Shown here: one piece after another, positions 3,725 through 26,449 of the stretch
Layout: the number at the start of each line of letters is the position of its first letter
Numbering within the stretch: the stretch's first letter is position 1
Virus record (IMG/VR): IMGVR_UViG_3300027908_000045
Location: 1 to 26,449 of that record
DNA: 26,449 bases
Source of the DNA: a virus
Direction: 5' to 3' (one strand)
Program-made: the position numbers and the translations under genes
The notes under the pieces: generated by a model
The model's input: only the letters and a program-made list of their open reading frames with translations
Databases searched by the model: none
What the model was told of the DNA's origin: nothing

Positions 3725-4441
3725 CTATGTCCTCGTCCCTGGCATCGTGATGTAAATTCCTAAGATCGTCGCATCCGCCGTGCCGCCGACGAACTCGACC
3801 GTGTCGCCCGGCGAAAGCGTGACCGTGCTGGAAAATGTGAACGATGCCGCAGCGGTTGCGGCGGTGAACGTAATCGTGCCAATCGCCGTCGTAGTGCCAC
3901 TCACGATCTTGTTGATCGTGATGGTGTAAGTGCCAGTGGAAGTCGTGCGGCATTTCGCAACGGCGCCGGATAAGCCAGCCGCGAACGAAACGTTTGTAAG
4001 CCCAGAACCGATGACATGACGAAGCAGGCTTTCGCTTGTTCCGGGAGGCGTTGTTCTCCCGCCTCCCATATCAAAGGTGACGAAATAGGGAGCGCTGGAC
4101 GTGCTCGCCGGAAACTGAAAGGGCGTCCTGTCGTCCTGAATTGCAGTGATGGCCCCGCTGAGTGTCGTTACGGTAGCGATCGGAATGCCGGTCGTCGGGT
4201 AACCGGTCGTATTTGAGGCCGGTGCGTTGCTCGCCGTCGTGTCTAGGAAAACATAGTTCGTGGCATTGTTCGCCATCGTCAGCGTGCCGCCGCCGTAGGC
4301 AAATCGCGCGTTCCCGGTGAATGAAGTTCCGGCGCTCAGATCGAGGACGAGGCTCGACGCTTGCGCCGTCGGCCAGAATCCTGGCGCAACGCCGTTGCAC
4401 CATTGCGCATTGACCAGATAAATCTCTTCGGGGACGAGCAT
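3725..4441 (-). CDS. Beta-rich tail-fibre-like structural protein
   Basis: The 238-residue protein starts EEIYLVNAQWCNGVAPGFWP. A middle segment describes a value-type beta strand array (TNYVFLDTTASNAPASNT, then IPIATVTTLSGAITAIQDDRTPF), which is common in phage fibre proteins just before their trunk. The C-terminal half is a Thr/Ser/Gly-rich beta sandwich (about 120-238) ending YITMPGTRT. There is no signal peptide. It follows the secreted glycosidase gene by 3 bases and precedes the LamG-like gene with no gap. A fibre or adsorption accessory role is likely, but the exact part is not known. Confidence 0.65.
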   Translation of the reverse strand: MLVPEEIYLVNAQWCNGVAPGFWPTAQASSLVLDLSAGTSFTGNARFAYGGGTLTMANNATNYVFLDTTASNAPASNTTGYPTTGIPIATVTTLSGAITAIQDDRTPFQFPASTSSAPYFVTFDMGGGRTTPPGTSESLLRHVIGSGLTNVSFAAGLSGAVAKCRTTSTGTYTITINKIVSGTTTAIGTITFTAATAAASFTFSSTVTLSPGDTVEFVGGTADATILGIYITMPGTRT

Positions 4442-4444
4442 GGC

Positions 4445-5872
4445 TTATTGCGGAACGTCGTGCGTCTGGGGCTGCGCGGTAACGGCGACTGCCGAACCTT
4501 CGAGAAGGATTGGCTTCTTTCCGATCGTCACCGTGGCGCCTAACGTGTTCGAGCCGCCCACGATATCGCGATAACTGAGATAGGTTCCGGCAGGTGGCGT
4601 ATACGTGCTGCTTCCGCTGGTGTCCCAGACGGCGCGCGCCGTATATCCGACTGGAGAGGTCCGCGTGAAATCGCAGTGCCAGACCGTCCCCGAGCTCGCG
4701 CAGGCGACCGACATCGTCGCGCCGACCATCCAGTTATAGACCTGCTGGTAGGCCGTCCCGGTCGACGTGAGGCATCCTAGGACGTTGGAGCACCCGTGGG
4801 AGCCATTTGCATACCAGAGCGTCCCCCAGCCCGTGTTGTCGTACTGATACCAGTAAGACCGCGAGAACCCGCCGGCCCAGCCGAGCAGGAAATAGCGCAC
4901 GACAAAGCCGTCAAAGTCTGCGGTCGATAGATTGGTCCCATCCTCGCCCCAGCCCCCTTCCGTGCTCCAGAGTGGCTGAGAACCGCCGGCCCCCGTGACC
5001 TGGCCATTCGCCGTCGTGAAGTAACCGGGCAACAGTTCCGGCGAGGAACAACAGGTCGTCGAACTCGCCCATGGGTAGGTGTGGACGGCGGCGATCGTTG
5101 CGGCTCCCAGTGCGCCCGAGGTTCCGACATAAGTCCCCCATGCCGTTACATTCGAACTTGTCCCCATCGAGCCGTTGCTCGGCGTGAGGATCTGAGCGCT
5201 CGACATGACGCCGACCGCGGCGACACCCATATGCCCTGCTGTGCAGGTTTCGCCCGTCGCCGTGATCGTCCCGGTTCCGAGAAGGATGCACTTCGCGTCC
5301 TGAGCCATCCGCGCGAGTTGGGCATCGGTTCCCTTCCACGAGCCGGACGTCCGGGTGAATTCGTTCCAGATTTCAAAGTAGGAGACAGGCGCGTAAGTCC
5401 CGCCGCTGAGACCGGAAAGATGATTTCCGAGGGCGTAGATGAAGCTGCGCCAGGTCTGATTGCTTCCCGTGACACCGCCATCACAATCGTTGAGCGTGTT
5501 GACGTTCGTGCACGAGGTCGCGATATCGGCCGGAACGCCGCAGGAGCCATTGGCCGTGCTGGCATAATCGCAGGCGCTATCCGAGGCATCGCTAGAAATG
5601 AAATGTGGCGTGGCGCTCAGCGTGAGCAGAATATCGCTAACGCCGATGGTTTTATCGTGCGCCAGCAGCGCGTCCAGAGTCGTGAAACTGTAGGTCGATG
5701 CCGCCGTGTTCATTTGCTGCCAGCGCGTATTCGTATCCCACAATCGATGGGATCCGACGCTGACAGCCGGAGTCGTCGTCTCCTGATAGTGCATCCCAAA
5801 GTAAGTGCTGGGGATTTGCGCAAACGCCGTTCCGAGCAGAAATAACAAGGCAAAAAAACGGCACGTTCTCAC
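4445..5872 (-). CDS. Secreted clan GH-A glycoside hydrolase (GH39/GH5-like)
   Basis: The 475-residue protein has a Sec signal peptide (MRTCRFFALLFLLGTAFA, cleavage probably before Q19) and then a (beta/alpha)8-type catalytic domain. Early strands read YFGMHYQ and SHRLWDTNTRW. The acid/base glutamate is Glu171 in SYFEIWNEF (the Asn-Glu pair of clan GH-A), His264 lies in AVHTYPW, and the nucleophile is Glu305 in LWSTEGGWG. The 134-residue spacing suits strands 4 and 7 of the barrel. A small beta domain follows (about 390-475). It should cut a beta- or alpha-linked polysaccharide with retention; the substrate is unknown. It starts with GTG, overlapping the previous gene by 4 bases (GTGA). A signal peptide is odd for a tail protein. 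Confidence 0.85.
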   Translation of the reverse strand: MRTCRFFALLFLLGTAFAQIPSTYFGMHYQETTTPAVSVGSHRLWDTNTRWQQMNTAASTYSFTTLDALLAHDKTIGVSDILLTLSATPHFISSDASDSACDYASTANGSCGVPADIATSCTNVNTLNDCDGGVTGSNQTWRSFIYALGNHLSGLSGGTYAPVSYFEIWNEFTRTSGSWKGTDAQLARMAQDAKCILLGTGTITATGETCTAGHMGVAAVGVMSSAQILTPSNGSMGTSSNVTAWGTYVGTSGALGAATIAAVHTYPWASSTTCCSSPELLPGYFTTANGQVTGAGGSQPLWSTEGGWGEDGTNLSTADFDGFVVRYFLLGWAGGFSRSYWYQYDNTGWGTLWYANGSHGCSNVLGCLTSTGTAYQQVYNWMVGATMSVACASSGTVWHCDFTRTSPVGYTARAVWDTSGSSTYTPPAGTYLSYRDIVGGSNTLGATVTIGKKPILLEGSAVAVTAQPQTHDVPQ

Positions 5873-7452
5873 AGCACGACTCCCAGAATTCCGGTGATGC
5901 CGTCTGCCGAGGCGTTCAGATATACGTTTGTGCCGTCCCAGGGCGGATTTGGCGACGCCTGAAAACGGATCAATCCATTGTTCATCGGCCCGATTGTAAC
6001 CAGGGCCGGCGTCGTTCCCAGCCCATGAGCAAGCGTGAAATCGCCTCGGGTAGTAGGCGGAATATCAACAATGGAAACGCTGACGCCGCTCCCCAAGGTT
6101 GACGTGGTCACATCGCTCGGCGGGCTGGTTGTTGTGCCGATGACCGTGGCGATCGCGCCCATTCCGCGCCTGCCGACGACGATGATGGTGGCCTGTCCGT
6201 TGTCGTGATCGTCCGAGTAATGCGAGCCCAATCGCCAGCAGTTCAGGAATATCTCTCCGGTCGTGTAGTTGATCGACCCATAGAAGACGGGCAGGCGGGC
6301 GTTCGGCGTCCAGTTTGACGTGCTTGACCAACACCAGATGTATTGCAGTTCGCTCCGCGAATAAACGTGCCCATCGATGGGACTTGTCGGCACGGGGATC
6401 GTGTCGAGATTGTTGTAAACGGTAGGCCCGAAAAACTCTGGCGTGAGCAGCGCTTCCCGAATATTGGCGTCGAGTTGCTGGACGTCCGCGGCGCGCAGCG
6501 TCTTGCCCGAAGCAAAGTTCGTCAGGGCGAATTCGGCGAGGCTGGTCGAGGTCGCGAGCGAGCCCGGCGTTCCACTGCGACGGCAGAAGGCAAAGACGGC
6601 CACGCGGCCGTAATTCGTGGGAAAGGTGACATTGCCATCGTTGTCATTGGTCGTGACCGAAACGCTGATGCCACCCGTGGGCGAGATCGAAGAATAGAAC
6701 GGGCCCAACTGGCCGAACTGCTCCGGCGGCTGCACGACCATCGTCTGCGTGCCGTCCGTCGTCCAGCGCCAGCAGGCGATGAAGCTTGCTTCGGCATAAC
6801 TGTAGGCGTAACCGTCGAGAGGGCTGATTAGCGTGCCCAGTCCGACCGTTTGCCCGTTGTAGAACTCGCCGCAGTAGAAGACTTCGCTGGCGATGGCTGC
6901 GAATTTCGCGTTGTCGTTGAGATGTTGCGCCAGATTTTGCGTGAACGGCTCGTCCACCGCCATGTCGCCGGAACTGACCGAGTTCCAGGTCGGCGTTGCG
7001 GCAAGAATGATCGTGCGGCGCTGTCGCTGACAGATGGTGTAGACGCGAATCTGCCCGTCATTGGTCTGCGTCCGCGATCCGCCCGAACCGTTGTTTCGGT
7101 ACCATTCCAGTGAGAACACATTGCCGGTCGCCTGGTCCACATTCCACTCGCAGAAGAAAAGACTGCCTGAGCCAGACTGGATCCAGCCGGTCTGCTGATT
7201 GGTCGAGATGTCCGGATTCCACAGGAAAGTACACTCGTCGATCGAGTACTGATACCCGTCGATCGGCGAGAGCGGCAACGGGACCGTGTCGCCGTTGACA
7301 TACATCCCTTGAAATATTTCGAGACGCGCGTAGGCGAACTCGGAGTTTTCGGCGACCGTCTGCACCATGTCGCCAAAGGCAGGGTCATCCGCGTCGAACA
7401 GAGTGTCCGAGAGATCGGAGAAGCCGTGAATTTCTGTGAAGGTGATGGACAC
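5869..7452 (-). CDS. Triplicated fibre-like tail protein
   Basis: The 527-residue protein starts with GTG at 7452. It has three tandem modules, at about 1-146, 150-293 and 305-428. Each has a helical start (for example FTQNLAQHLNDNAKF at 170-184) and a beta domain carrying SP[IL]DGxxYS (62-70, 210-218, 357-365), aromatic W/C-rich strands and a closing basic end (CQRQR, CRRSG, GRRG). The C-terminal domain (about 440-527) holds AHGLGTTPALVTIGPM and resembles the ends of many phage fibres. The gene follows the hub gene and is coupled to the glycosidase by overlap. A receptor-binding or baseplate-peripheral role is likely. The triplication suggests repeated sugar-binding units. Confidence 0.7.
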   Translation of the reverse strand: MSITFTEIHGFSDLSDTLFDADDPAFGDMVQTVAENSEFAYARLEIFQGMYVNGDTVPLPLSPIDGYQYSIDECTFLWNPDISTNQQTGWIQSGSGSLFFCEWNVDQATGNVFSLEWYRNNGSGGSRTQTNDGQIRVYTICQRQRRTIILAATPTWNSVSSGDMAVDEPFTQNLAQHLNDNAKFAAIASEVFYCGEFYNGQTVGLGTLISPLDGYAYSYAEASFIACWRWTTDGTQTMVVQPPEQFGQLGPFYSSISPTGGISVSVTTNDNDGNVTFPTNYGRVAVFAFCRRSGTPGSLATSTSLAEFALTNFASGKTLRAADVQQLDANIREALLTPEFFGPTVYNNLDTIPVPTSPIDGHVYSRSELQYIWCWSSTSNWTPNARLPVFYGSINYTTGEIFLNCWRLGSHYSDDHDNGQATIIVVGRRGMGAIATVIGTTTSPPSDVTTSTLGSGVSVSIVDIPPTTRGDFTLAHGLGTTPALVTIGPMNNGLIRFQASPNPPWDGTNVYLNASADGITGILGVVL

Positions 7453-7459
7453 GAGCGTT

Positions 7460-9274
7460 TTAGTCTAGTTTCGGGGCGGGGCTTCCATCCGACTGTTGAT
7501 CACTGGTATTGCAGAGAAACATGTAGGTCGCCTTTTCGTCCGACGTGGCCGAAGTCCAGACTGGCACGCTGTTCTCGGCGATCAACGCCGTGCCTGCGGT
7601 CGCGAGATAACTTGCATCGAGCAGCCGTACTTTCACCAGCCCGTCGTTGAAATCCCAGGTGCGATCGAAGACTTCAAAGAGTTTGCCGGAAATGCCCATG
7701 ACGCCCGCGATACGATCCGGCACGTGCGCCGAGCTCATATCCACGATGTCGCCGGGTTCGAGCAGGCAGGCCGACCAGAGCAGATCGATCTCGGTGAACA
7801 TCGGGTTTTTGGACCCGTAGCGCCGAAAAATCATGCTGGAGATACGCTCTGCCAGAAAGACGCCTTGCAGTCCGGATCGCATGCCGGCCGCTTCGATGAT
7901 CTGCGTCCCATATTGGCCGTAGAGCGCCACGCTCGGCGCGTATTCGTCCGTGGTCTCCACGGCATAATCGCTCGATCCGCCCGTCGTGTTGTCCATGCGA
8001 AAGGTGACGGTGTTGATCAGGTCCGCCTGTTCCGCGAGCGGCAACACAATCATGTTGTCTTCATTGATTGAGTACACTGACGCCGGAAGCGAGAACGGCT
8101 GCACGGCATTCCAGCCGGGCTCGCTCGAAACCAGTGGATCCGTTTGCGGCTCGATGCCGTTGGCATCACGAAAGACGGCTCCCAGATGCAGCGATACCAA
8201 CCCGCTGATGTACTGGATGCGATACAGGTTTCCAGCCGTGACTGCCACGACGACGGGCGCCGCCGCCGAAGTGTCGATGAACGGATAAGCGGAGTTGATG
8301 CCGCCGGTAAAGGTCCAGGGCGCAACGTCGGCATTGACTGTAACGTTGCTGCCATTGACCGCGATGACCCACGAACCGGAATTGTCGGTCCAGAAATGAT
8401 CGTTTACGCCAAGTTGCAACTGCGTGGCGCCAGCCGGAGCTTTGAGCGTGACATCCAAGCCGGGAGCGAAGGGCGCCCGCACAAGTTGCCCGGTTGAGTC
8501 CGTCCAGGCTCCGATCAAACAACCGGAGAACACGGCAGGGCGAACCTGTTTATAGAAGAAATTAACGTCGATCTGCCCTTTATTGTTCGTCCACAGATAC
8601 CCGCCCAGGGGTTTCAGTAGCTGTGCCTCGATGAAATCTTTGGCCGCAGGTGGCGAATCGATCTCGAATTTGAACTGGATGCCGGCAAAGATCCCATCGC
8701 GATAGCCGTTAATCTTCGCCTGATTGATCGCCGTCGCCGGGATGCCCGCTTCGTCCACCAGTGCGGCGATCAGGATGTCGAGCGGGTGGCCGTTCAGCGT
8801 GCGCAGATGATCGGAGTCGGTCGGAAAGCCGTCATCGGCAACGCCAAAGATCACCTGAGTCAGCGTCTGTTGATTGTCGATGCAATTGAACTGATAGGAA
8901 AGATTCTCGTTGGCCGACGCCACTGAGTCGATCACGCCGGTGAACAGCAACGCAAAATCGACCTGCGCCATGCCGACTAATCCGGTCATGACCGTGACGC
9001 TCTTGCCCTCGAAGGTGAAACTCGGAAAGTCCGCCGTGATCAGATTCTGGAAGTCCTGGACGGTGAAACTCCAGTTCTGGATGTCCGAGCCGCCGTCCAT
9101 CTCGCTAATCGTGATCTGCAGATCGTCGTAGGCCTCGAGCCAGTCGTATTGCCCGCCCACTCCCGTGGCGTAGTTGGTGAAGACGCGCGAATAGCCTGCG
9201 ATCGTGATGAGGAAGATCGGGGCCTTGAGTAGCGCGACATTGGCCGAACTGAAATTCGCGGGAACGCTGATCAT
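7460..9274 (-). CDS. Tail hub / baseplate protein with lectin-like insert
   Basis: The 604-residue protein follows the distal-tail candidate, where siphophages encode the tail hub. The N-terminal part (1-240) is beta-rich and typical of hub domains (FTGVIDSVASANENLSYQFNC at about 111-131, then FIEAQLLKPLGGYLW). The C-terminal part (about 410-560) resumes hub character (INTVTFRMDN, LLEPGDIVDM). Between them, residues about 262-405 look inserted. That segment reads GATQLQLGVNDHFWTDNSGSW at about 282-302, close to the LecA (PA-IL) galactose-lectin strand pair with its ND...NNSGSF signature. Lectin binding is inference. The start ATG is 19 bases from the divergent plus-strand gene at 9294. Confidence 0.75.
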   Translation of the reverse strand: MISVPANFSSANVALLKAPIFLITIAGYSRVFTNYATGVGGQYDWLEAYDDLQITISEMDGGSDIQNWSFTVQDFQNLITADFPSFTFEGKSVTVMTGLVGMAQVDFALLFTGVIDSVASANENLSYQFNCIDNQQTLTQVIFGVADDGFPTDSDHLRTLNGHPLDILIAALVDEAGIPATAINQAKINGYRDGIFAGIQFKFEIDSPPAAKDFIEAQLLKPLGGYLWTNNKGQIDVNFFYKQVRPAVFSGCLIGAWTDSTGQLVRAPFAPGLDVTLKAPAGATQLQLGVNDHFWTDNSGSWVIAVNGSNVTVNADVAPWTFTGGINSAYPFIDTSAAAPVVVAVTAGNLYRIQYISGLVSLHLGAVFRDANGIEPQTDPLVSSEPGWNAVQPFSLPASVYSINEDNMIVLPLAEQADLINTVTFRMDNTTGGSSDYAVETTDEYAPSVALYGQYGTQIIEAAGMRSGLQGVFLAERISSMIFRRYGSKNPMFTEIDLLWSACLLEPGDIVDMSSAHVPDRIAGVMGISGKLFEVFDRTWDFNDGLVKVRLLDASYLATAGTALIAENSVPVWTSATSDEKATYMFLCNTSDQQSDGSPAPKLD

Positions 9275-10036: not shown

Positions 10037-12829
10037 CTAGACGGATCTCCGCGTCACGCGTTTTGAGTTCGAGGAGAGCAGACGCGCCTGCCCCTTGTTG
10101 ACCTGTCGCGTGATCTTGCGCACGGTGAGCGGGATATCGCTCTGCAAGTGAATCTGGAGTGGGCCGCCGTTTCCGGCACCCATCTGCATCTTGCCCGCGA
10201 TGGCTGCCGCGAGGCTCGACAATGCCGCAGTGTCATGCAGGGGGATGATGGCTTTGCCGCCGGGCGCATCGCCCACCATGGCCAGCGTGGGGGACATGAC
10301 GAGGCCTCCGTCGGCCAGTTTTGGGACGTTGATGCCGCCCGAGGGAGCGCCGCCAGCCGTCGTGCCGGCGTCCGACGCGATCGTCGCACCACTGGAGCTG
10401 GTCGTCGAACTCTTGCTGCTGCCGCTGCCTAGTCCGCCCATGACGCCAGCCAAAGCCTCGAGGCCAGCGGCCGCCGCATACATGCCAGCCGCGCCACCCG
10501 GGTCAAAAGTTGGACCGGGCGTGGAATCGGCAATCGCCTGAGCGAGATAATATTTCGCCCATTGCTGAGCGATAGAGGCGATGGTTTTGAACATTGCCTT
10601 TTCGATTGCCTCACCGGCAGATTCCGATCCGGTGATCATGGCGCTAAACGCGTCCTGAATGCCTTGTGCCATACCGTCGACGGCCGTTTTGAACGAGTCG
10701 GCCATTTGCTTGGCGGACCCAGCATCCAGGTCGGCGCCCTGTTGAAACTCCGAGGAGAACATCTCCCATGCCTGCCGCAACCGACTGACCTGTTGTGCCT
10801 CCCGAACTAGGGCATTCGTGGCGTTTTGGATTTCTTTCTGTTGTGCCTTGAGTGCATTGGTATCCTGGCCTCGCGCGTTCGCAAGCGCGATCTCATCCTG
10901 AATCGCGAGAAGCATGGCTTGGTGCTTCTGCAGATCGAGCGCAAGCTGCTCTTTGCCGGCGGCAGTAGCAATCGCGATAGCCTGCCCGACGGCCCCCTTT
11001 TCGTTGGCAAGGCGCTCTTTTTCGAATTGCGCCGAAACCTTGGTGATCTCGGTCTCCGTCGTTTTGACTGCGTTCTCGGCGGTGGCGAGATTCTTTTTCA
11101 GTTCCGCAACCTGAGTGTCGCTGAACATCGGATTACCCTGAGCCGCAGTCTCCCGTTTCTGGGCTGCTTCTACAAGGGCCTGCTGTTTCGACAGTTGATC
11201 CTTGAGAATCGCGAGTGACTTCTGTTCTTCCTCGTTATAAAGAACGATCAATCGCTGATTTTTCTGCTGTTCGCTGATGATTCCCATCGAGGCGAGTTGC
11301 TTCACAGCGTCTTCGCGCGCATGGTAGTTCTCTTGAATCTGCCCAAGTTCCAGTTTTGCATCCTCTGCGGCCTGTTTCAATTGCTGGGCTTGACTCTCGG
11401 AAACAATCTTAAGTTCGGCGTCCGCCATGGACTGCACAAGTTTGATGCGTTCGTCGACCAGCGATTTGTAAAAGCCGGTCTCTTGCAACCCCTTTGCCTC
11501 TTCTTCCTTGATCGCGGCGTCGATGACGGCGAGACGCGCCTGAGAGCCAGCTTTTGTGGCGTCGATTTTCTCGCGTTCATCCTGTTGCAGGTTGGCGATA
11601 AGTTCGTTGCGGCGTTGCTCGCGGAGTTTGTCGTCTTCAGATTGTTCTTTTTGCTGTTCGCTGGCGTTGGCCTTTAATATCTTTTCGCTGTCTTGCAGTG
11701 CGCGATTATACTCGGCGATACCTTTCACTTGTTTATTGTCGCCAGCAATCGCGTCGAGCTTTACTTGCACATTCTGTTGTGCCTCTAAGGCGAGAACGAG
11801 ATCCTTTTGAGCCTCAATCTGCTTTTCCGTGTAGGTGACAGCACGATTCATGAGCGGCGCCATCGCCGTGCCGCCGGTGATGACAGTATCCTGTAATTTA
11901 TCCGCAGCGGCATTGGCATCGGTCATGGCCTTCTGCATATCCTTGGCGCTTTTGAGCGTTCCGGCAAGCAATGCTGACGCTTCATCCTTCTTGCCCGCCG
12001 TGAGCAGCAGGTCGTACTGGGCTTGAAAATCCGTCAGTGCATTCTTGGCGCCTTCTGAACCAGCCCGAAGCCCTAGCCAATCGCTCTTCAACTTGGCAAA
12101 CATCAGATCAGCGGCTTGCGCGATTTTCTGAAATTCACCTTGCAGTTCCTGCATTTGTTGATGATCAATGAGTTCGAGTTCTTTGCGGAGCGCCTCCAGG
12201 TGATTGCCGCGCAACTCGTCGATCTGAATTTGAGCCCGGAGAAATTTGTCCTCCAATCCAGTTGCGACATTGTTAAGCGTCGTATTGAACGCATCCTGCG
12301 CAAGCTGAAGTTGATGGGATTCGTCTTGCCACTCTTTGAACTTTTCAATGCCCTTGACCAGTGCGTCGATCAAGAATAAGACGGCCGTCGCCGCGAATGC
12401 GCCCTGTAGCACTGACTGAATGCCGGGCATAGAGGCGACAAAACTCGCCACATGACGCGGGAGATGGATACCGGTAGCTTCGCCGAGCAGCATGACCTCG
12501 CCGCGCGCTTCCCGGAAGTTGGCGCTCATCCTCCCAGTCGCATCGCCGGCCTCGTCGCTCGCCGGGGCGACATTGCGCAACGAAAAGGCCATATTCTGTA
12601 GGGCCTGATCGGATTGCTGAACCGGTGGCGGAATCAACTTGATTGCATCGGCGAGCGTGCTCCCAGCTTGCCCGGTATTGACCATCGTCTGCGCGAGGTT
12701 GTTTGCGGACACTACCGCCGGATCAAGCGCCGCCTGTGTTTTGCTCGCAATGCCGGCGAGCGCGGCGTCGAGGTTATTCGTGTCGCCGTAGAAGGTGAGA
12801 ATTGCGTCGCCGATGTCTAGTTTCGCCAT
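10037..12829 (-). CDS. Tail tape measure protein
   Basis: At 930 residues this is the longest gene. It starts MAKLDIGDAILTFYGDT and has an Ala-rich helical N-terminus, a hydrophobic stretch at about 145-165, and a long coiled-coil trunk (about 160-700) rich in Gln, Glu, Ala, Lys and Leu. A hydrophobic Gly/Ala-rich region follows (about 740-790). Near the C-terminus, starting at about residue 838, is the motif GGLVMSPTLAMVGDAP followed by AIIPL, which is characteristic of tape measure C-termini. The protein fills the tail tube during assembly and sets tail length. By the usual rule of about 0.15 nm per residue it predicts a tail near 140 nm, a siphovirus-like value (inference). Confidence 0.95.
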   Translation of the reverse strand: MAKLDIGDAILTFYGDTNNLDAALAGIASKTQAALDPAVVSANNLAQTMVNTGQAGSTLADAIKLIPPPVQQSDQALQNMAFSLRNVAPASDEAGDATGRMSANFREARGEVMLLGEATGIHLPRHVASFVASMPGIQSVLQGAFAATAVLFLIDALVKGIEKFKEWQDESHQLQLAQDAFNTTLNNVATGLEDKFLRAQIQIDELRGNHLEALRKELELIDHQQMQELQGEFQKIAQAADLMFAKLKSDWLGLRAGSEGAKNALTDFQAQYDLLLTAGKKDEASALLAGTLKSAKDMQKAMTDANAAADKLQDTVITGGTAMAPLMNRAVTYTEKQIEAQKDLVLALEAQQNVQVKLDAIAGDNKQVKGIAEYNRALQDSEKILKANASEQQKEQSEDDKLREQRRNELIANLQQDEREKIDATKAGSQARLAVIDAAIKEEEAKGLQETGFYKSLVDERIKLVQSMADAELKIVSESQAQQLKQAAEDAKLELGQIQENYHAREDAVKQLASMGIISEQQKNQRLIVLYNEEEQKSLAILKDQLSKQQALVEAAQKRETAAQGNPMFSDTQVAELKKNLATAENAVKTTETEITKVSAQFEKERLANEKGAVGQAIAIATAAGKEQLALDLQKHQAMLLAIQDEIALANARGQDTNALKAQQKEIQNATNALVREAQQVSRLRQAWEMFSSEFQQGADLDAGSAKQMADSFKTAVDGMAQGIQDAFSAMITGSESAGEAIEKAMFKTIASIAQQWAKYYLAQAIADSTPGPTFDPGGAAGMYAAAAGLEALAGVMGGLGSGSSKSSTTSSSGATIASDAGTTAGGAPSGGINVPKLADGGLVMSPTLAMVGDAPGGKAIIPLHDTAALSSLAAAIAGKMQMGAGNGGPLQIHLQSDIPLTVRKITRQVNKGQARLLSSNSKRVTRRSV

Positions 12830-12832
12830 GAA

Positions 12833-13246
12833 TTATTCGCCGTCTTTGCCGGTGGGGGAGAAGCCTGCCAGATTGGAAGTCACCACTTCCGGGATTCTGG
12901 GCGCGTTCTGTTCAAAGGCGGGCCAGAGATAGGGCTCGGCGCTCATCTTGGCCGTGCCCAATTCGACCCATCCGCCATACCCGGCGCTGGTCGTCATGCG
13001 GGCGCGGACGCCGTGTGCGCTTTGCCGCACCGTCGCATTGATGCTGTCGCGCAAGCGCCCCGGCTCGCGGGCTTTCGTCGCCTTCGGCAACACCGGGCAA
13101 AGTCCGCGGGCCGTCTCGACCGCATCGAACCCGACGACTTCCTCAATCGCCTCAAAGACGGCTTGTCGGATGAAGTCGCCAGCCTCTTCGGTGTGCAGGT
13201 TGAGGTTGACGAACTCGTTGAGTTCGGGTGCGTCTAGTTTTGCCAT
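12833..13246 (-). CDS. HK97 gp10-like head-tail/tail completion protein
   Basis: The 137-residue protein carries the family signature near the end: GRLRDSINATV, then GYGGWVELGTAKMSAEPYLWPAFEQN, the pattern (aromatic-rich stretch, E-x-GT, A-x-P-[FY]-L-x-P-A) of HK97 gp10-like proteins, which act at the head-tail junction or in tail completion. The N-terminal half is a helix (EEAGDFIRQAVFEAIEEVV). Its ATG lies inside the end of the frameshifted chaperone (13-base overlap), so it is probably translationally coupled to the -1 product. The position between the chaperone and the tape measure is unusual, since this family normally stands before the tail terminator. Confidence 0.75.
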   Translation of the reverse strand: MAKLDAPELNEFVNLNLHTEEAGDFIRQAVFEAIEEVVGFDAVETARGLCPVLPKATKAREPGRLRDSINATVRQSAHGVRARMTTSAGYGGWVELGTAKMSAEPYLWPAFEQNAPRIPEVVTSNLAGFSPTGKDGE

Positions 13247-13925
13247 TTCTCAAATTCGTGCGGGAGGAGTTGCGTCTTTCGCATGAATGAGAGCAACTCC
13301 GTGTCACTCACGCGCTTATTAGCCGTTCCCGATTCTTCAGGCGTACTTTTCAGCGCCCGGGCGCTTTCGAGTATGCGCTTGTTACGCGCCTGCCAGAAAG
13401 CCTCGAACTGTTCATCGGTCCAGTTGTCGAGCAGATACTCTGGGGATAGGTGCCACTCGGCAAGTACAAACTCTAATTTACCGATGAGCGTGAGCGGGAT
13501 TGTTGCGCCCGCTGCATCTCCAACACCGCCCCCAGGGAGGCTAAAAAAGGCTGAAAGGCCGCCTTGTAGATTTCCGCGAACGCGCGCGTGAAATCTTCGT
13601 CATAGGCCTCATCGAGGATCTGTTCGCGTTGTCCTGTGAGGCAGGGCGCATAAGAGAAAACAAGTTCGGGAATCTTGTCAGGGAAGTTGAGTAACGCCGC
13701 GGTCAACGCATTCCCCACGCTTTTCGCCATTTCGTCTTTGCCTGCCATGCCGTCCACGATCATCGAGGCTGCAACTTCCTGCGTGCGCTCAAAATATTCC
13801 TTGCGCCAGATGGCGGCAGCTTTCATCCGCAATACCGGAATGGTATATTCCTTGTCGCCGAATCGAACGACAATCTGCTTGAGCAGAATGTCGGACTCAC
13901 TGCGGGGCGCTTCTACGCTTTTCAT
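13234..13925 (-). CDS. Tail assembly chaperone, long form made by -1 frameshift (gpGT-like)
   Basis: Reading the chaperone from 13925 to the slippery heptamer T TTT TTA (13542-13548) gives 128 residues in frame 0. A slip of -1 rereads base 13542 and continues for 102 residues to a TAG at 13234, giving 230 residues in total. The -1 part has no start codon of its own but is strongly protein-like (LIGKLEFVLAEWHLSPEYLL, then WTDEQFEAFWQARNKR and SFMRKTQLLPHEFEKWQN). In lambda and many siphophages the two products, G and GT, load the tape measure and recruit tail tube subunits. Position just upstream of the tape measure is as expected. A 6-bp hairpin at 13493-13513 lies about 28 bases downstream of the slip site. 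Confidence 0.88.
13473..13925 (-). CDS. Tail assembly chaperone, short form (gpG-like)
   Basis: The zero-frame product has 150 residues. The start at 13925 is preferred because AGGAG stands 8 bases upstream. A longer frame to 14063 exists but would run over the divergent gene at 13981. The protein is helical with a beta start (IVVRFGDKEYTIPVLRMKAA), then a helical core (YFERTQEVAASMIVD, LTAALLNFPDKIPELVFSYA) and a Gln/Arg/Ser tail. It binds the tape measure before tail polymerisation and is not expected in the mature virion. It ends at a TAG 69 bases past the slippery site, so frame 0 and -1 overlap for this distance. Confidence 0.88.
   Translation of the reverse strand: MKSVEAPRSESDILLKQIVVRFGDKEYTIPVLRMKAAAIWRKEYFERTQEVAASMIVDGMAGKDEMAKSVGNALTAALLNFPDKIPELVFSYAPCLTGQREQILDEAYDEDFTRAFAEIYKAAFQPFLASLGAVLEMQRAQQSRSRSSVN
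13542..13548 (-). promoter_or_regulatory. Programmed -1 ribosomal frameshift site
   Basis: On the minus strand the heptamer T TTT TTA stands with the exact codon phase required for -1 slippage (CCT TTT TTA in frame 0). It is the canonical X XXY YYZ type. A GC-rich imperfect hairpin (CCTCCC with GGGCGG, one mismatch) starts 1 base after it, and a perfect AGCGGG/CCCGCT hairpin follows at 13493-13513. Either may stimulate slippage. The -1 frame stays open for 102 codons. Confidence 0.88.
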
Positions 13926-13944
13926 TCGCTTAACTCCTGTGTTA

Positions 13945-13973
13945 TTGCCGATAGGGGCAGTTTCGGATATCTT
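13945..13973 (+). promoter_or_regulatory. Probable promoter of the secreted plus-strand gene
   Basis: TTGCCG (13945-13950) and TATCTT (13968-13973) are separated by 17 bases and resemble sigma-70 -35 and -10 boxes (four of six matches each). The -10 box ends 7 bases before the ATG at 13981, so the transcript would be leaderless or nearly so. No Shine-Dalgarno sequence is present. The boxes lie between the divergent starts at 13925 and 13981. Confidence 0.45.
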
Positions 13974-13980
13974 GCCACGC

Positions 13981-14490
13981 ATGAAAAACGGCGCGGTGTT
14001 GCTGTTGACTTGCCTGTTGTGCCTTCCTGCATTCGGGCGAAAGAAGGAAAAATTAGCCTTCACTCATACCGGCGAGGTCATCGCCCATGCCGCCGTCAAA
14101 GTGTTCGCACTTTCTCATCGAGACGATCTCTTTTATGCAGGGGACTACGTGTGCCTGCCCGGGGATGAGCATCATGCCCCCGATTGCCGCACCTATCTCG
14201 ATTGGTCGGTGATCGACAAGTTCGCGTATACGGAAATCCGCCTAGATGATAAAAGCGCGATCATTGTTTGTTTTTGCCAGGAAGAAGCGCAACACGAACC
14301 ATGGAGACATGACGCGACGACCACGACAATTCGCGCCCTCGACCCGGACAACGATCTAACGCTGTTGGCGCTGAGATGGGAAGGCGAGCCAGACGGGCAG
14401 CCCGTCAGGTTTCATTACGCCATCGACAGCGCCGGGCGCATCCGGATCAAAAATCATGAACCGCGACAAACGGACCTGCTCGCCCCATAG
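13981..14490 (+). CDS. Secreted protein of unknown function, antisense cargo (moron) candidate
   Basis: The 169-residue protein begins with a clear Sec signal peptide (MKNGAVLLLTCLLCLPAFG, cleavage about residue 19). The mature part has a beta-rich domain (LAFTHTGEVIAHAAVKVFALSH, YAGDYVCLPGDEHH, CRTYLDWSVIDKFAYTEIRL), Cys residues that could pair outside the cytoplasm, and a C-terminal half with HYAIDSAGRIRIK. I do not recognise the family. The start at ATG 13981 is chosen because it carries the signal peptide; the upstream frame is antisense to the chaperone gene. The gene fills the gap between the chaperone and a structural gene on the opposite strand. A periplasmic or surface role, such as superinfection exclusion, is possible but unproven. 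Confidence 0.75.
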   Translation: MKNGAVLLLTCLLCLPAFGRKKEKLAFTHTGEVIAHAAVKVFALSHRDDLFYAGDYVCLPGDEHHAPDCRTYLDWSVIDKFAYTEIRLDDKSAIIVCFCQEEAQHEPWRHDATTTTIRALDPDNDLTLLALRWEGEPDGQPVRFHYAIDSAGRIRIKNHEPRQTDLLAP

Positions 14491-14538
14491 AACTTCGGCG
14501 GTCATGGCCCGAATCCTATCACCGACGCTTTGCGACGC

Positions 14539-15321
14539 CTAGGCCGAAGCGATCGAGCGATCAGCCTTGGCAACGATTTCGAACTGATCTCCGCTGGTGC
14601 CGGTGGTGATCGAGATGGCAGTCACGTCCACATACACCTGGGAAGTGTCGGAGAGCGCCGTCTCGGTACCGATGGTGTGGGTCGCAAGAGTCGCCGTCAA
14701 TGTCGCCACGGTGCCGTCGATCTTGACGGCGGTCACACTTACGACCGCCGAAGTGGTGAGCGCCGTCAGGTTTTTAACCTTAAACTGCGCCCCGGCGTAT
14801 TTCGTTTTGTCGATTGCGGCTTGATGCGCGAAGGTTCCCGCGGTTGCGCCAGTCTCGGTAAATGTCGCGATCACTTGGTCGTTGGGGACGTAGCAATTAC
14901 CAGCCGATAGCGTCTTTAGGTATGTCTTAAAGAAGCCATTGGCTCGCAGCGTCGGTGCGCTGGTGTTCTGTTTCGTCAGATAATCATCGATGCCCTTATA
15001 CGAAAAGCCCTTGAAATGAGTGTTGAGCGCCGCGATCATGCTGTTCATTTCGGGAATCGTGAGCAGGAAGCCGTCGGCGGGCGACGGATTGTTTTCGTCG
15101 AGAGAGCGTGCGGCTGGCAACAGATCGGCGACGATATCTTCGTCGTCGGTAGCGAGCACATAGGCTGCAATCGAATTGCTTCCGGAAAGCACGTCGGCGT
15201 TGGCCTGCGTCATGCCAGCGTTGAAACCAGCGTTGAAAGTGGGATCGCCAACGGATTCGACGGCCCATCGGGCCATCTTGTCGAGGATGTGCTGCAACTG
15301 CGTGTTGCTCATAATTGGCAT
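14539..15321 (-). CDS. Phage structural protein of unknown role after the tail tube
   Basis: From the ATG at 15321 (AGGAG 7 bases upstream) the product has 260 residues. The first half is helical (LQHILDKMARWAVESVGD, then NSMIAALNTHFKGFSYKGIDDYL) and the second half is a beta sandwich of the type seen in virion proteins (KYAGAQFKVKNLTALTTSAVV, VKIDGTVATLTATLATH, DQFEIVAKADRSIA). It lies between the tail tube and the tail assembly chaperone. A second tail-tube-like or tail-decoration protein is plausible, because the beta half could pack on the outside of the tube. The longer frame to 15537 lies over the tail tube gene and is rejected. Confidence 0.65.
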   Translation of the reverse strand: MPIMSNTQLQHILDKMARWAVESVGDPTFNAGFNAGMTQANADVLSGSNSIAAYVLATDDEDIVADLLPAARSLDENNPSPADGFLLTIPEMNSMIAALNTHFKGFSYKGIDDYLTKQNTSAPTLRANGFFKTYLKTLSAGNCYVPNDQVIATFTETGATAGTFAHQAAIDKTKYAGAQFKVKNLTALTTSAVVSVTAVKIDGTVATLTATLATHTIGTETALSDTSQVYVDVTAISITTGTSGDQFEIVAKADRSIASA

Positions 15322-15385
15322 CGGAGGTCTCCTGAAATTGATTTTGAACTTGAGGTTGATCGAACTTGGGAAGTCAGAGCCGGTC

Positions 15386-15943
15386 TTACAGGACGAACGG
15401 GATGCTGGCGAATGTCTTGGTCGTGGCCAGATCGGCAAGAGTCGGCTGGCTTGGATCGGACAGCGCTTCGAACTGCACCTGGTATTCGACCATGTCTTTG
15501 CGCTGGTACTTCGCCTTGACTGCGCCGATCGAGACAATGCGTGTGATCAAAGCCTCGCGCGTCGCATTATTGGTATCGGGCCCGAGCCATCCCAGGATGA
15601 ATTCTGGGGCAGTCGTGACCGAGCCAATCGTCAGCGTGTCGGTTCCGTTGAAGGTGGCACCGGGGATGGCATAGGTGAGATTCTGCATCGTGGTCTCTGC
15701 CAGTTTGGCGGTCACCAGAAGTTTGTGAGCGGTGAGAATCTTCTTCGCCGGACCCATGAGTTCATCGACCATGATGTCTTTCCAGGTCGGGGTGTAGTCG
15801 AATTCGATTCCGTCCGCGGTGAAGCCGATCTCGGTGAACGCCGCAAAATCCGTCTTGGCGCCCGTGAGAGTCGGCAAAGTCGTGCCGGCTGCGGCGATAA
15901 ACAGATCGCTGGGGCCGACGGTGATATTTGCAATAACGCCCAT
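15386..15943 (-). CDS. Major tail tube protein candidate
   Basis: The 185-residue protein has features of phage tail tube proteins: MGVIANITVGPSDLFIAA, a strand pair around DFAAFTEIGFTADGIEFDYTP, a charged DELMGPAKKI helix, a long loop, and a C-terminal strand set with KDMVEYQVQFEALSDPSQP. AGGAGG stands 8 bases before the ATG, one of the strongest ribosome-binding sites in the window, as expected for an abundant virion protein. It sits between the tail terminator and the chaperone/tape-measure pair. No tail-sheath gene is found next to it, which favours a non-contractile tail. Confidence 0.8.
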   Translation of the reverse strand: MGVIANITVGPSDLFIAAAGTTLPTLTGAKTDFAAFTEIGFTADGIEFDYTPTWKDIMVDELMGPAKKILTAHKLLVTAKLAETTMQNLTYAIPGATFNGTDTLTIGSVTTAPEFILGWLGPDTNNATREALITRIVSIGAVKAKYQRKDMVEYQVQFEALSDPSQPTLADLATTKTFASIPFVL

Positions 15944-19477: not shown

Positions 19478-20785
19478 CTAGGAGCGCGTGGCGAGCGAAA
19501 TGAAGGGACTTTGTGTATTAGTCCCGTTTTTCGGGGTCAACGGCTTCTTCCAGGTCGGCTGTCCATCCACGCGATAGACGAACCGGAACGTGGTTTCATC
19601 GTTGAGGAATCGGACGTGGATCGAGGAAGCCGCTTCCGGAGCGCCCTTGTCGCTCATCACGTACTGGCTCATGTCGGCCAGGATGATGTCGCCCGGGGTG
19701 CCGAGCGTCGAGCAATGTTCCGCGGGGATGACGGGCAATCCCATCATGCGGCCGTAGAGAGGATCGTTGTTCATCTGCGATCCCGGCGGGAAGTAGAGCA
19801 ACTGAACCGCGGTTCCCGAGCCCAGGGTCAGGGGATAGAGCTTCGGCTCCACGTCCTGATTGATGAGCCAGACCGCATTCACACGGCTGGTAGCGAACAG
19901 TCGCGTGTACATATTCAGCACGTCATTGGTTGAGACCGTTGGGCCGCTGTCGCCCGAATCCTTGGCCACGGTGATGACGGCGCCAGAGTTCAGGAATCCG
20001 AGAGGCTGACCAGAGCCGCTGCCGCTGACGATTGCATCCTCCACCTTGAACGTGAATTCCTTGGGGAAGGCGTCCATGATCACGGCCTGAAGTGCGGCCG
20101 CGTCCTGCAACAGTTCGTCGGTCGCATAGCAGAGGCCTGTCAGTTTGTTCAGCGCGAGTTCGATCTGGCGGAACTTCGGCTTGGCACCGGTGAAGGCGTC
20201 CGCTTCGTTCGCCCAGAAGGCCTGCACGCCGCCCCAACGGGATCCATCCACTCGGCTGTCTTCGTCGATTGCGTTGATCTTCAACCGATTCGACTGCGAC
20301 GAGATGGGATACCGCGTCACGCGCGATGCGATCTGCCCGGTGGCGTAGGTCCGCTGCAGGAGCTGATCAGAAAAGTCGGTCTGCACCAGAAAGCCGCCGT
20401 CGGACGGAACGGTTTCCGAAGTGCCGGACGGGCCAGCCATGAAACTTGCGAGCCGCGGATCAACGCGACCAGAAAGCGAGGCATGGCGCACGGCAATCAA
20501 CTGTTCGCCGAGACTCTTGAACGGCCTTTTCGGCGCGGCTGCTGCGGCGGCGGTGGAATCGACATCTTCGACCGGCACGCCGGACAACTCGCGCTCCGCA
20601 TCCATGACCTGCTCAATGCGATCAATCTGCGCCTGAACGTCCTGCGTCTTCTGTTTGTTGGCCGTAAATGTGGCCTTTTCGGTTTCGGTCATGTCGCGGT
20701 TTTCGTCGCGGCATTTGACCAGAATTGCGTGATTTTGGCTGAGCAGGTCCTTTTTTTCCTGCCGGAGCCCATGGATATTCTTCAC
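19478..20785 (-). CDS. Major capsid protein, HK97 fold
   Basis: The start is the GTG at 20785, with AGGAG 8 bases upstream, giving 435 residues. The N-terminal 70 or so residues are a charged coiled coil (HGLRQEKKDLLSQNHAILVKCRDEN, KQKTQDVQAQIDRIEQVM), the delta (scaffold) domain of HK97-type capsids. An Ala-rich linker follows, then the mature domain from about residue 90: KSLGEQLIAVRHASLSGR, GGFLVQTDFSDQLLQRTY, EADAFTGAKPKFRQIELALNKL and NMYTRLFATSRVNAVWLINQD. The S49 protease upstream would remove the delta domain in the prohead, so no separate scaffold is needed. The terminator-like hairpin just upstream may set its dosage. Confidence 0.93.
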   Translation of the reverse strand: MKNIHGLRQEKKDLLSQNHAILVKCRDENRDMTETEKATFTANKQKTQDVQAQIDRIEQVMDAERELSGVPVEDVDSTAAAAAAPKRPFKSLGEQLIAVRHASLSGRVDPRLASFMAGPSGTSETVPSDGGFLVQTDFSDQLLQRTYATGQIASRVTRYPISSQSNRLKINAIDEDSRVDGSRWGGVQAFWANEADAFTGAKPKFRQIELALNKLTGLCYATDELLQDAAALQAVIMDAFPKEFTFKVEDAIVSGSGSGQPLGFLNSGAVITVAKDSGDSGPTVSTNDVLNMYTRLFATSRVNAVWLINQDVEPKLYPLTLGSGTAVQLLYFPPGSQMNNDPLYGRMMGLPVIPAEHCSTLGTPGDIILADMSQYVMSDKGAPEAASSIHVRFLNDETTFRFVYRVDGQPTWKKPLTPKNGTNTQSPFISLATRS

Positions 20786-20826
20786 TTTGATTTCTCCTGA
20801 ATTTTTTGTCTGGAACTTGACGCAAC

Positions 20827-20876
20827 AAAAAACACCGCCGCGCCGCAGAATCATCGGATTCCGCGGCGGCAGGCGG
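20827..20876 (-). terminator. Strong intrinsic terminator or attenuator upstream of the major capsid gene
   Basis: On the leftward transcript a 12-bp stem (arms 20841-20852 and 20857-20868, one G-U pair, 4-base loop) is extended by five further pairs (20835-20839 with 20872-20876) and then TG and a T6 run (20832-20827). This is a textbook rho-independent terminator. It lies 42 bases before the capsid GTG and 51 bases after the gene ending at 20928. No convincing promoter is seen between it and the capsid gene, so read-through, antitermination or RNA processing is implied. Confidence 0.75.
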
Positions 20877-20927: not shown

Positions 20928-21269
20928 TTAGGCGCTTTCGGCGATCAGCGACTCCGTGAGCAGTTCGTCGCTGGCGTGACAGAGCGCGACTCTCTTCTCA
21001 TCGACACACTTCTTGCACTCGTCGTCGTGGATGAAGTTGAACTCACCGGGCCCGACCGGAACGCAACGATAGTCGTGCCCAGGGAACCATCGCTGTTCGA
21101 TGTTATTTGCGGTCTGCGATAAGACGCTTTCCACGCCCTGAGGAGTCAGCATCTTGCCAGGCGGAGCGCGAAATAATTGCTTCTTGGGATGTTCGTTCCC
21201 AGGTGGAAATATCTTCACCAAAATGCGCTTGAAGCAAGGGCCTCCCACGACTCGACCAACTACCCTCAT
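20928..21269 (-). CDS. Small Cys-containing hypothetical protein, possible zinc site
   Basis: The 113-residue protein begins basic (MRVVGRVVGGPCFKRILVKIFPP) and later has FIHDDECKKCVDEKRVALCHA, giving a Cys85-x2-Cys88 pair with Cys97 and His98 (and His81) nearby, which could bind zinc. Cys12 and Cys69 are also present. It overlaps the end of the protease gene by 4 bases (ATGA) and stands before the capsid gene and its terminator. In related phages a small head protein or scaffold may lie here, but no family is recognised. The zinc site is inferred from spacing only. Confidence 0.65.
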   Translation of the reverse strand: MRVVGRVVGGPCFKRILVKIFPPGNEHPKKQLFRAPPGKMLTPQGVESVLSQTANNIEQRWFPGHDYRCVPVGPGEFNFIHDDECKKCVDEKRVALCHASDELLTESLIAESA

Positions 21270-22855
21270 AGCGCCTCCATTTCCATCTCGCGTTCAAGCA
21301 ATGCGATCGCCGCGTCGAACTTGGGGGCCGTCTGTTCGCTGTGGAAGTCGGGCGGCGTCTTGTCGAAGAGTTTGTACTCCGCCGCGAGGTGATCGTAGAC
21401 GGCCTTTCGATCCGCCTCCGGAATGCTGGTGCCGCCGCGCGAGCCGAGAAGCGATGCCATCGCCGCAGCAACGCCGCCCCACACGACAACAAATTTCCCG
21501 TCTTCGATGTCGTGATGCGGCAGTTTGTAAGAGCCGAAGGCATCCGGATTCGAGGAGTCGTACCAAGCAAAGCCGCGGCGATATTTCGCCCAGTCCATCT
21601 TGTCCTTGTCGCCGGAACCGTCTGAGGATGCCCACTTCGCGAGACGGTTTTCCGCCGCTGGCCCATCCCATGAATCGGAGTCGTCTTTGCCGTCGGAGTC
21701 GCCGTGAGGGACGGCGGCAGCTTTCAAATCGGCGGTCACTTCGCGCCAGCCTTTGCAATTCGTGCCCTTGGTGTGTGCGTTCTGAATCAACGCCTTGTGA
21801 TCGGGGGTCGCGTCGCCAAAATGATGCGGGGTGTCGCAGTTACCAAACGGCCCTGCAACGATTTCGAGATCAGTCTCAGCCTTTGCAGCAGAACCGGGCA
21901 TCGGCGTCCTCGCGCCCAATCTTGCGAGTGTCTGATCGAGCGTCGCCACCCTGTCCGCCATGCCCATCTTGACGGCCTTGTTGGCGGGGATCATGCGCCC
22001 CTGGCCGAATCCGTTCTGAACGCTTTGCTGATCGCTCTGCCGGCCACGCGCCACGGCTCGCGTGAACATGTCGTAGTAACTGTTGACCGAATCCTGCAAT
22101 GCGCCGCGCGCTTCATCGCTCAGCGGCTCGAATGGATTTCCTTCCGTCTTATACTTCCCGGCGCTTACGAGCGAGACTTTGACGCCAGCTTTGTCGAGCG
22201 CCTGACTCATGTCCTCGTGCGCGCCGAAAACGCCGATCGATCCCACTTCGCCCGAAGGTGTCACCACAAATTCTTTCGCCTGTGAGCCCAGCCAGTAGGC
22301 GGCAGATGCGGCCTGTGTGTTGGCGACGGCGGTTACGGGCTTCGACTGATTCGCTTTGTAGATTTCATCTGCCAGTTCGGGGACGCCGTCGACCGTTCCG
22401 CCAGGCGAGTCGATATCGAGCACGATGGCCTTGACCGAAGGATCGGCGACGGCTGCGCGCAGCCATTGCGTAAACTTCTCGGTCGATGTGCCTCCGGACA
22501 TATCCGACATGAGTCCCGTGCGATGGGAAATCGTGCCCGAGATGGGCAGGACGGCGATGCTTCCGGCCTTGGATCGCGAAGAACTGCCGGGCGCGGCTGC
22601 CTGACATGCCGCACATTCGCGTTTCGCCGCTTCGACGGCTTCCGGCAAAAGAATGCTGCTGCAAGTATGCGGCGCGTCTTGCATCGCAATATAAATCGGT
22701 TCTTTTGCTGGCTGTTTGACCAGCGCAATCTCCTCAGCCGATACCTCGCCACCGTCAGCCTTGAAGCGCAGAAACGAGACAATGGTCATCAACTTGTCCG
22801 CTCGCATTGCCCAGGGAGTGGACATGACTGCCGACATGATGCGGGAATATTTCAT
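21266..22855 (-). CDS. S49-family (SppA/ClpP-like) capsid maturation protease with C-terminal phage domain
   Basis: The 529-residue protein starts at the ATG at 22855 (AGGAG 10 bases upstream). Residues about 95-310 are a peptidase S49 domain: GSIAVLPISGTISHR, LDIDSPGGTVDG at 146-157, the nucleophile Ser184 in QAASAAYWLG, SGEVGSIGVFG at 201-211 and the general base Lys234 or Lys236 in SAGKYKTEGNPFEPLS. It cleaves the capsid delta domain in the prohead. The C-terminal part (about 395-505) is a separate phage module (LAKWASSDGSGDKDK, YRRGFAWYDSSNP, GSYKLPHHDIEDGK, then GTSIPEADRKAVYDHLAAEY) seen in phage head and protease proteins, possibly for prohead attachment. A Cys-rich linker (C65, C81, C84) lies near the start. 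Confidence 0.9.
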   Translation of the reverse strand: MKYSRIMSAVMSTPWAMRADKLMTIVSFLRFKADGGEVSAEEIALVKQPAKEPIYIAMQDAPHTCSSILLPEAVEAAKRECAACQAAAPGSSSRSKAGSIAVLPISGTISHRTGLMSDMSGGTSTEKFTQWLRAAVADPSVKAIVLDIDSPGGTVDGVPELADEIYKANQSKPVTAVANTQAASAAYWLGSQAKEFVVTPSGEVGSIGVFGAHEDMSQALDKAGVKVSLVSAGKYKTEGNPFEPLSDEARGALQDSVNSYYDMFTRAVARGRQSDQQSVQNGFGQGRMIPANKAVKMGMADRVATLDQTLARLGARTPMPGSAAKAETDLEIVAGPFGNCDTPHHFGDATPDHKALIQNAHTKGTNCKGWREVTADLKAAAVPHGDSDGKDDSDSWDGPAAENRLAKWASSDGSGDKDKMDWAKYRRGFAWYDSSNPDAFGSYKLPHHDIEDGKFVVVWGGVAAAMASLLGSRGGTSIPEADRKAVYDHLAAEYKLFDKTPPDFHSEQTAPKFDAAIALLEREMEMEAL

Positions 22856-26198: not shown

Positions 26199-26449
26199 TT
26201 ATTTGTAGGCTAGTTCGACCGTCGCATCGCTGATGAGCACGGCAGTTGTGTCGGCGTCGGTGATGCCCTTGGTGAGCGCCCAAGCGATACCGGTACCAAA
26301 GGCGAGACCATCTTCCGAGGAGAGGCAGTAGGGAACCCCGGCTTGCGCTTCTATCACCTTGACGGGAGTATCGGTGCCGACGGTCGGCGCACTCGCCTTG
26401 TTATAGAGTTTGAGATAGACCGGATAAGCGGCGTTGTTGTTCACGCAAA
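26199..26449 (-). CDS. C-terminal domain of a virion-type structural protein, cut by the right edge
   Basis: The frame runs from the right edge to a TAA at 26199. A GTG at 26444 could give 81 residues, but the frame is open to the edge and the sequence starts in mid-domain (NNNAAYPVYLKLYNKASAP, then VGTDTPVKVIEAQ and GLAFGTGIAWALTKGITDAD). This is a known C-terminal domain type of phage structural proteins (conserved LKLY, PTVGTDTP, GTGIAWALT, D-D-T), so I read it as the 3' end of a longer gene. It is the first gene of this window in the leftward operon and shows that the structural region continues to the right. Confidence 0.75.
   Translation of the reverse strand, partial: CVNNNAAYPVYLKLYNKASAPTVGTDTPVKVIEAQAGVPYCLSSEDGLAFGTGIAWALTKGITDADTTAVLISDATVELAYK

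Follow-up and report, generated by a model that had tools for sequence, protein, structure and literature searches.

Among the closest described relatives of the enzyme considered here is PslG of Pseudomonas aeruginosa (GH39; PDB 4zn2, 5bx9, 9g17), in which E165 is the acid/base and E276 the nucleophile (PMC11912335). Our enzyme is a glycoside hydrolase (GH) encoded in a viral stretch of 26,449 nucleotides (IMG/VR record IMGVR_UViG_3300027908_000045), hereafter the window. It resembles PslG in fold along 350 residues (Z 27.1, rmsd 2.8), in both catalytic glutamates, in a predicted signal peptide and in an exopolysaccharide-cluster setting, the last of these being that of its nearest chromosomal relatives. 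At the same time, the two proteins are 18% identical, and the window enzyme is phage-borne, lies in a tail block and carries two extra cysteine pairs that belong to its own subfamily. The top structural match, BcGH39 of Bacteroides cellulosilyticus WH2 (PDB 5jvk; Z 27.6 over 351 residues), differs at a similar level (15% identical), and it is an enzyme of a gut bacterium that is not phage-borne.

Phage-encoded comparators have also been described. The 'beta-1,4 xylanase' of Cr30 (AGS80957) is a homolog covering 92% of the window protein, keeps the catalytic residues and likewise overlaps the phage gene upstream of it; it is, however, 22.6% identical, has neither signal peptide nor cysteine pairs, and falls in a clade of signal-less phage copies. 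Soil viruses encode a GH5 endomannanase (PMC6786970) and a GH75 chitosanase (PMC9485262), with a proposed role in carbon degradation. Like the window enzyme these are virus-borne, bacterial-type and from soil, one set coming from peat with Acidobacteria hosts, but they belong to families other than GH39, and a term search of the main texts of both papers found no mention of signal peptides. Finally, there is precedent in principle for soluble phage depolymerases freed at lysis (PMC5380687), and their proposed end effect, free enzyme digesting exopolysaccharide around the lysing cell, is the one we propose below; no Sec export is described in that review, however, where the term 'signal peptide' is absent. 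In the literature searched, whose coverage was incomplete, we found no exported PslG-like phage enzyme.

A GH39 gene in the tail block

The gene occupies positions 4445-5872 on the minus strand (a strand that the sequence-only reading of this DNA, which first pointed to the gene, had left out) and is supported by its open reading frame and ribosome binding site, by an AlphaFold model compared with the PDB, and by a profile match to PslG. It encodes 475 residues from a GTG start codon at 5872, with ggGAG placed 7 nt upstream. That start overlaps by four bases (GTGA) the stop of a 527-residue gene (5869-7452, minus) that has three internal repeats, as layout and repeat analysis indicate. The overlap with a fibre-like gene proposed earlier thus stands as an overlap, while the fibre identity is at best putative, since the 527-residue protein has no family match and its model is useless (pLDDT 32); a search for viral relatives of it found none.

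The surroundings bear out the proposed placement in a tail gene cluster, with head, neck and tail genes upstream and a phage lysozyme downstream. In order, we find a head maturation protease (21266-22855, minus; phrog_53, 2e-88, with prophage relatives in an Acidobacteriota order), the major head protein (19478-20854, minus; phrog_10, 1.5e-44), an adaptor, a tail terminator, an Ig-domain tail protein, a neck protein and a probable tape measure protein of 930 residues (10037-12829, minus), the last assigned from position, length and helical composition, with no PHROG at a good E-value. Further tail-block genes follow, among them a 604-residue gene placed there by position alone (7460-9274, minus), for which neither family match nor relatives were found, and then the GH gene. 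Beyond it lie a 238-residue gene that starts 3 nt past the GH stop (3725-4441, minus; phrog_22757 and phrog_11585, both without assigned function), a 340-residue phage gene (2702-3724, minus; phrog_2448 over its full length, without assigned function) and the lysozyme or endolysin (1999-2595, minus; PF00959, 3e-11, and phrog_7, endolysin). No sigma-70-like promoter was detected between 1500 and 10200, and hence no private promoter-like site for the GH gene, whose simplest mode of expression is therefore read-through from the late genes. A foreign base composition can be set aside (GC3 0.73, against 0.59-0.76 in the neighbours), and neither Rfam nor tRNA searches gave any hit in the window. Two further observations concern the window as a whole. 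Between the neck and Ig-domain genes, 13246-15386 (minus) holds no clear coding-strand gene and may contain missed or frameshifted tail assembly genes; and far from the GH gene, at 26199-26447 (minus), a gene truncated by the window edge retains a C-terminal part with 43% identity to the upstream partner of the Cr30 GH.

The family could not be read from the protein alone, which matched nothing in Pfam, PHROG or NCBIfam, and the assignment for that reason needed relatives and fold. A single-sequence viral scan found no relatives of the enzyme; an alignment-based scan found them in 51 viral contigs, and these, together with the Caulobacter phage Cr30 'xylanase' and Acidobacteriota contigs, resolved the family. 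Nine residues are invariant across the 38-sequence alignment (W51, P89, P114, E167, W169, N170, E171, H264 and E305), and Pfam GH39 scores above cut-off in the relatives L002, L004 and L007. The AlphaFold model (pLDDT 85.3, pTM 0.88) is a confident barrel in which E171, in the motif WNE, follows strand b4 (163-168), and E305, in the motif TE, lies within strand b7 (301-306), which answers the structure prediction that had been suggested as a check. On this model, with an Asn-preceded glutamate after b4 and a glutamate in b7, the protein is a member of clan GH-A, as the sequence-only reading had it, and its nearest relatives in sequence and structure narrow this to a PslG-like GH39 enzyme. The best solved structures are all GH39, with xylosidases (Z 22-24) following BcGH39 and PslG, and the top rows from VIA-align are GH39 or GH39-like; structures of GH30, GH51 and GH79 match below these, activities of those families being possible. 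An alignment profile search likewise placed PslG first (5.9e-28), its other best matches being GH39 entries of xylosidase or glucosidase type, and aligned PslG E165 with E171 and E276 with E305 (PslG residue numbers being chain index plus 26). By this alignment the enzyme is predicted to be a retaining hydrolase with E171 (codon 5360-5362, minus) as acid/base and E305 (codon 4958-4960, minus) as nucleophile, and the catalytic glutamates earlier described as intact are indeed so.

Signal peptide, cysteine pairs and the case for export

The signal peptide recognized in the sequence-only reading is predicted here as well, at residues 1-18 (5819-5872, minus). The N-terminus reads MRTCRFFALLFLLGTAFA followed by QIPSTY, so that AxA before Q forms a typical cleavage site, and it scores 9.57 on a home-made, simple score of n-, h- and c-regions, admittedly a crude predictor, on which all other window genes tested fall below 7; counterpart signals occur in the chromosomal relatives. 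Sequence and model agree that the GH-A barrel begins directly after the signal, with no attachment domain between. Two probable disulphides add to this. The first cysteine pair, C101/C111 (5540-5572, minus), is kept in 8/9 signal-bearing phage copies and 44-45 of 47 Acidobacteriota copies, and the second, C391/C400 (4673-4702, minus), in 8/9 and 46/47; as pairs, both are found in none of the 22 signal-less phage copies, among which cysteines at positions 101, 111, 391 and 400 number 0, 1, 2 and 0. Disulphides form outside the cytoplasm, and the pattern accordingly fits export and supports it independently of the N-terminus, although, the signal-less phage copies forming one clade, the contrast is essentially a single phylogenetic one rather than many.

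Across phage relatives the same score separates two groups: the window copy, L008-L013 and L016 score above 8 and L015, with a lipoprotein-like start, 6.6, while signal-less representatives score below 6. Terminase or portal genes lie near the signal-bearing copies L008/L009, L011, L015 and that of a prophage in genome G360, a set outside which L010, L012, L013 and L016 fall. The L008 and L009 copies differ with a dN/dS of 0.13, and the gene is thus maintained by selection in phages. The signal-less copies, for their part, are coupled to partners from two conserved gene families, which they overlap or adjoin; the signal-bearing copies lack this coupling, and the window's 527-residue gene is unrelated to these partners. 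In many viral contigs (L017:9303-11065, L018:5704-7523, L051:9255-11074 and others) a conserved pair recurs, made up of a gene of about 200 residues and a GH39 gene without signal that overlap or adjoin each other. We read this as two uses of one enzyme family, one exported and one signal-less, partner-coupled and possibly virion-bound. The contrast with tail depolymerases that the sequence-only reading drew from the signal peptide consequently holds within the GH family, where just the signal-less copies are partner-coupled, but the window enzyme is no lone oddity, because other late genes at the fibre position of Acidobacteriota prophages also carry signal peptides.

It is decidedly unlikely, in our judgement, that the enzyme is a virion component despite its signal, that is, an entry depolymerase carried on the tail, with the signal unused or serving as a hydrophobic anchor. 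Such a role would suit the tight translational coupling to the upstream tail-block gene, the conserved partner genes to which signal-less copies in other phages are coupled, and the listing of Cr30's relative in a review of virion-associated enzymes (PMC5380687), yet it fits poorly with the typical cleavage site, with a barrel that follows the signal without any N-terminal attachment domain, and with cysteine pairs kept in signal-bearing copies only.

Chromosomal kin, host and origin

Among 200 genomes of a single Acidobacteriota order, 34 contain homologs (up to nine matches per genome), most of them with N-termini resembling secretion or lipoprotein signals. In the maximum likelihood tree the 22 signal-less phage copies stand apart, and the signal-bearing phage copies are scattered among the chromosomal ones, for which reason we conclude that the gene has been exchanged repeatedly; well-supported branches force at least nine changes. 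A single phage-specific lineage of signal-bearing copies is ruled out by the AU test, in which holding together the six copies with verified phage neighbours was rejected (p 1.3e-72, log-likelihood 219 lower). The window gene is in this respect a host-type gene in a viral context, placed by the tree among chromosomal genes and flanked on both sides by head, tail and lysis genes.

The window copy's own clade has five rows (100/98): the window, the viral contig L010 and copies from genomes G360, G217 and G455. The closest relative of all, its GH39 domain 46-49% identical to that of the window, is the G360 copy, the C-terminal part of a signal-bearing protein of 1226 residues, and it is taken to lie in a prophage because terminase and portal genes adjoin it. 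That gene (L108:8973-12653, minus) fuses a signal-bearing, beta-helix-like N-terminal part to the GH39 domain. The copies from G217 and G455 are found in exopolysaccharide clusters of Wza/Wzz/Wzy type that are syntenic with each other and include Poly_export, a chain-length protein, Bac_transf, Wzy_C, glycosyltransferases, RmlB and RmlA; the G455 cluster has a Wzx-type flippase whose C-terminus carries the GH39 domain (L110:7534-10422, plus). Direction within this clade is left both ways by the tree, host-to-phage and phage-to-host both being possible. An exopolysaccharide-cluster setting for all chromosomal relatives is ruled out, since it applies just to the nearest clade (and partly to a further G217 copy), and most other chromosomal loci looked at lie outside such clusters. 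Nonetheless, the setting holds for the two nearest chromosomal relatives and not for the window gene, which sits in a phage tail block, and so the window enzyme would work like PslG and derive from an exopolysaccharide-cluster setting while itself being no cluster member.

These same neighbourhoods bear on whether the enzyme might instead be a nutritional auxiliary gene, exported to cut plant or soil polysaccharide and feed the infected host, as proposed for the soil-virus GHs. Virus-encoded GHs of proven activity have indeed been described from soil (PMC9485262) and, with Acidobacteria hosts, from permafrost peat (PMC6786970), and within a single Acidobacteriota genome the family is represented by many paralogs, most of them outside exopolysaccharide clusters. 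We regard this explanation as unlikely, however, given that a late position between tail and lysozyme genes would leave little time to feed the host, that exopolysaccharide clusters are where the nearest chromosomal relatives are found and that PslG is among the best structural matches. The freeing of sugars suggested in the sequence-only reading is likewise without support.

An Acidobacteriota host is likely, from the kinship of the GH and from prophage head genes, although some other phages match the window's head proteins equally well; the head protease has relatives 46-51% identical in prophages of the same Acidobacteriota order and reaches similar values in other phages. In such prophages the genes after the tail-tip gene often start with a signal peptide. 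By the home-made score, signals are carried by 11 of 95 genes of at least 150 residues in nine Acidobacteriota prophage stretches, while in eight stretches from phages whose head genes are related the figure is 2 of 87, and in the surroundings of signal-less GH copies it is 2 of 190; Fisher's test gives p 0.02 for the comparison with the former control and 1e-4 for that with both controls together. This enrichment is best taken as a lead, because one of the nine stretches was picked for holding the GH, a spanin-like gene is among the 11, the predictor is crude and the single control that was positive has no assigned host. Large genes with Sec-type signals are seen at the fibre position in L155:1168-4149 (minus), L162:16534-18771 (plus), L162:18811-19899 (plus), L156:11169-12056 (minus), L159:7813-10512 (minus) and L108:13119-18134 (minus). 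Signal peptides at fibre loci thus look common in Acidobacteriota prophages, and the window GH may belong to a group of several late proteins that are exported.

A proposed role at lysis

Overall, we favour, as the probable reading, a phage-borne PslG-like GH39 endo-glycosidase of Acidobacteriota origin that would be made late, exported through Sec, freed at lysis and directed at the surrounding exopolysaccharide. Layout, signal, catalytic residues and kinship can be read from the sequence, and from these we infer export, timing, substrate and effect. The enzyme would be made late, with its gene coupled to those of the tail, ahead of the lysozyme gene, and presumably co-transcribed with the late genes; the signal would take the enzyme to the periplasm, where the cysteine pairs would form disulphides and where it would build up, possibly cutting nascent exopolysaccharide already. 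Lysis would then free it as a soluble enzyme, which would endo-cleave exopolysaccharide around the cell and let progeny leave the slime and reach neighbours, and we would not expect it as part of the virion. In Gram-negative bacteria a Sec signal means export to the periplasm and alone gives no passage across the outer membrane. Thus, of the earlier proposal that the enzyme acts outside the cell on host exopolysaccharide, action outside the cytoplasm on that polymer is probable from the cysteine pairs, the GH39/PslG fold and the cluster kinship, whereas action beyond the periplasm does not follow from the signal alone. The substrate, moreover, is suggested by the neighbours of relatives about 45% identical, of which just the nearest clade lies in exopolysaccharide clusters.

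Were the enzyme to stay in the periplasm, it could be a host-benefit or superinfection-control gene that trims nascent exopolysaccharide and alters the infected or lysogenic cell's surface. PslG is likewise a periplasmic protein, its gene lying together with those for the synthesis of its polymer (PMC11912335), and a close relative of the window gene lies in a prophage; but the layout indicates late expression with no private promoter-like site, no lysogeny genes were seen in the window, and we give this possibility very little weight. The evidence suggests instead that a soil-type phage turns its host's slime enzyme on the slime around the lysing cell. More tentatively, and with considerable doubt, we propose that Acidobacteriota phages keep Sec-exported late cargo at the tail-fibre locus, fibre-like proteins as well as exopolysaccharide hydrolases from slime clusters, as a second, non-virion arm that would act on the host matrix at lysis instead of, or beside, tail-bound depolymerases.

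If the favoured reading is true, phages repeatedly capture a hydrolase that is kept beside host exopolysaccharide genes, export signal included, and express it late. One enzyme family would then serve two uses, either exported and disulphide-bearing or signal-less and partner-coupled, and soil phages would have a testable route by which to open the slime of the Acidobacteriota, an abundant and hard-to-grow phylum.
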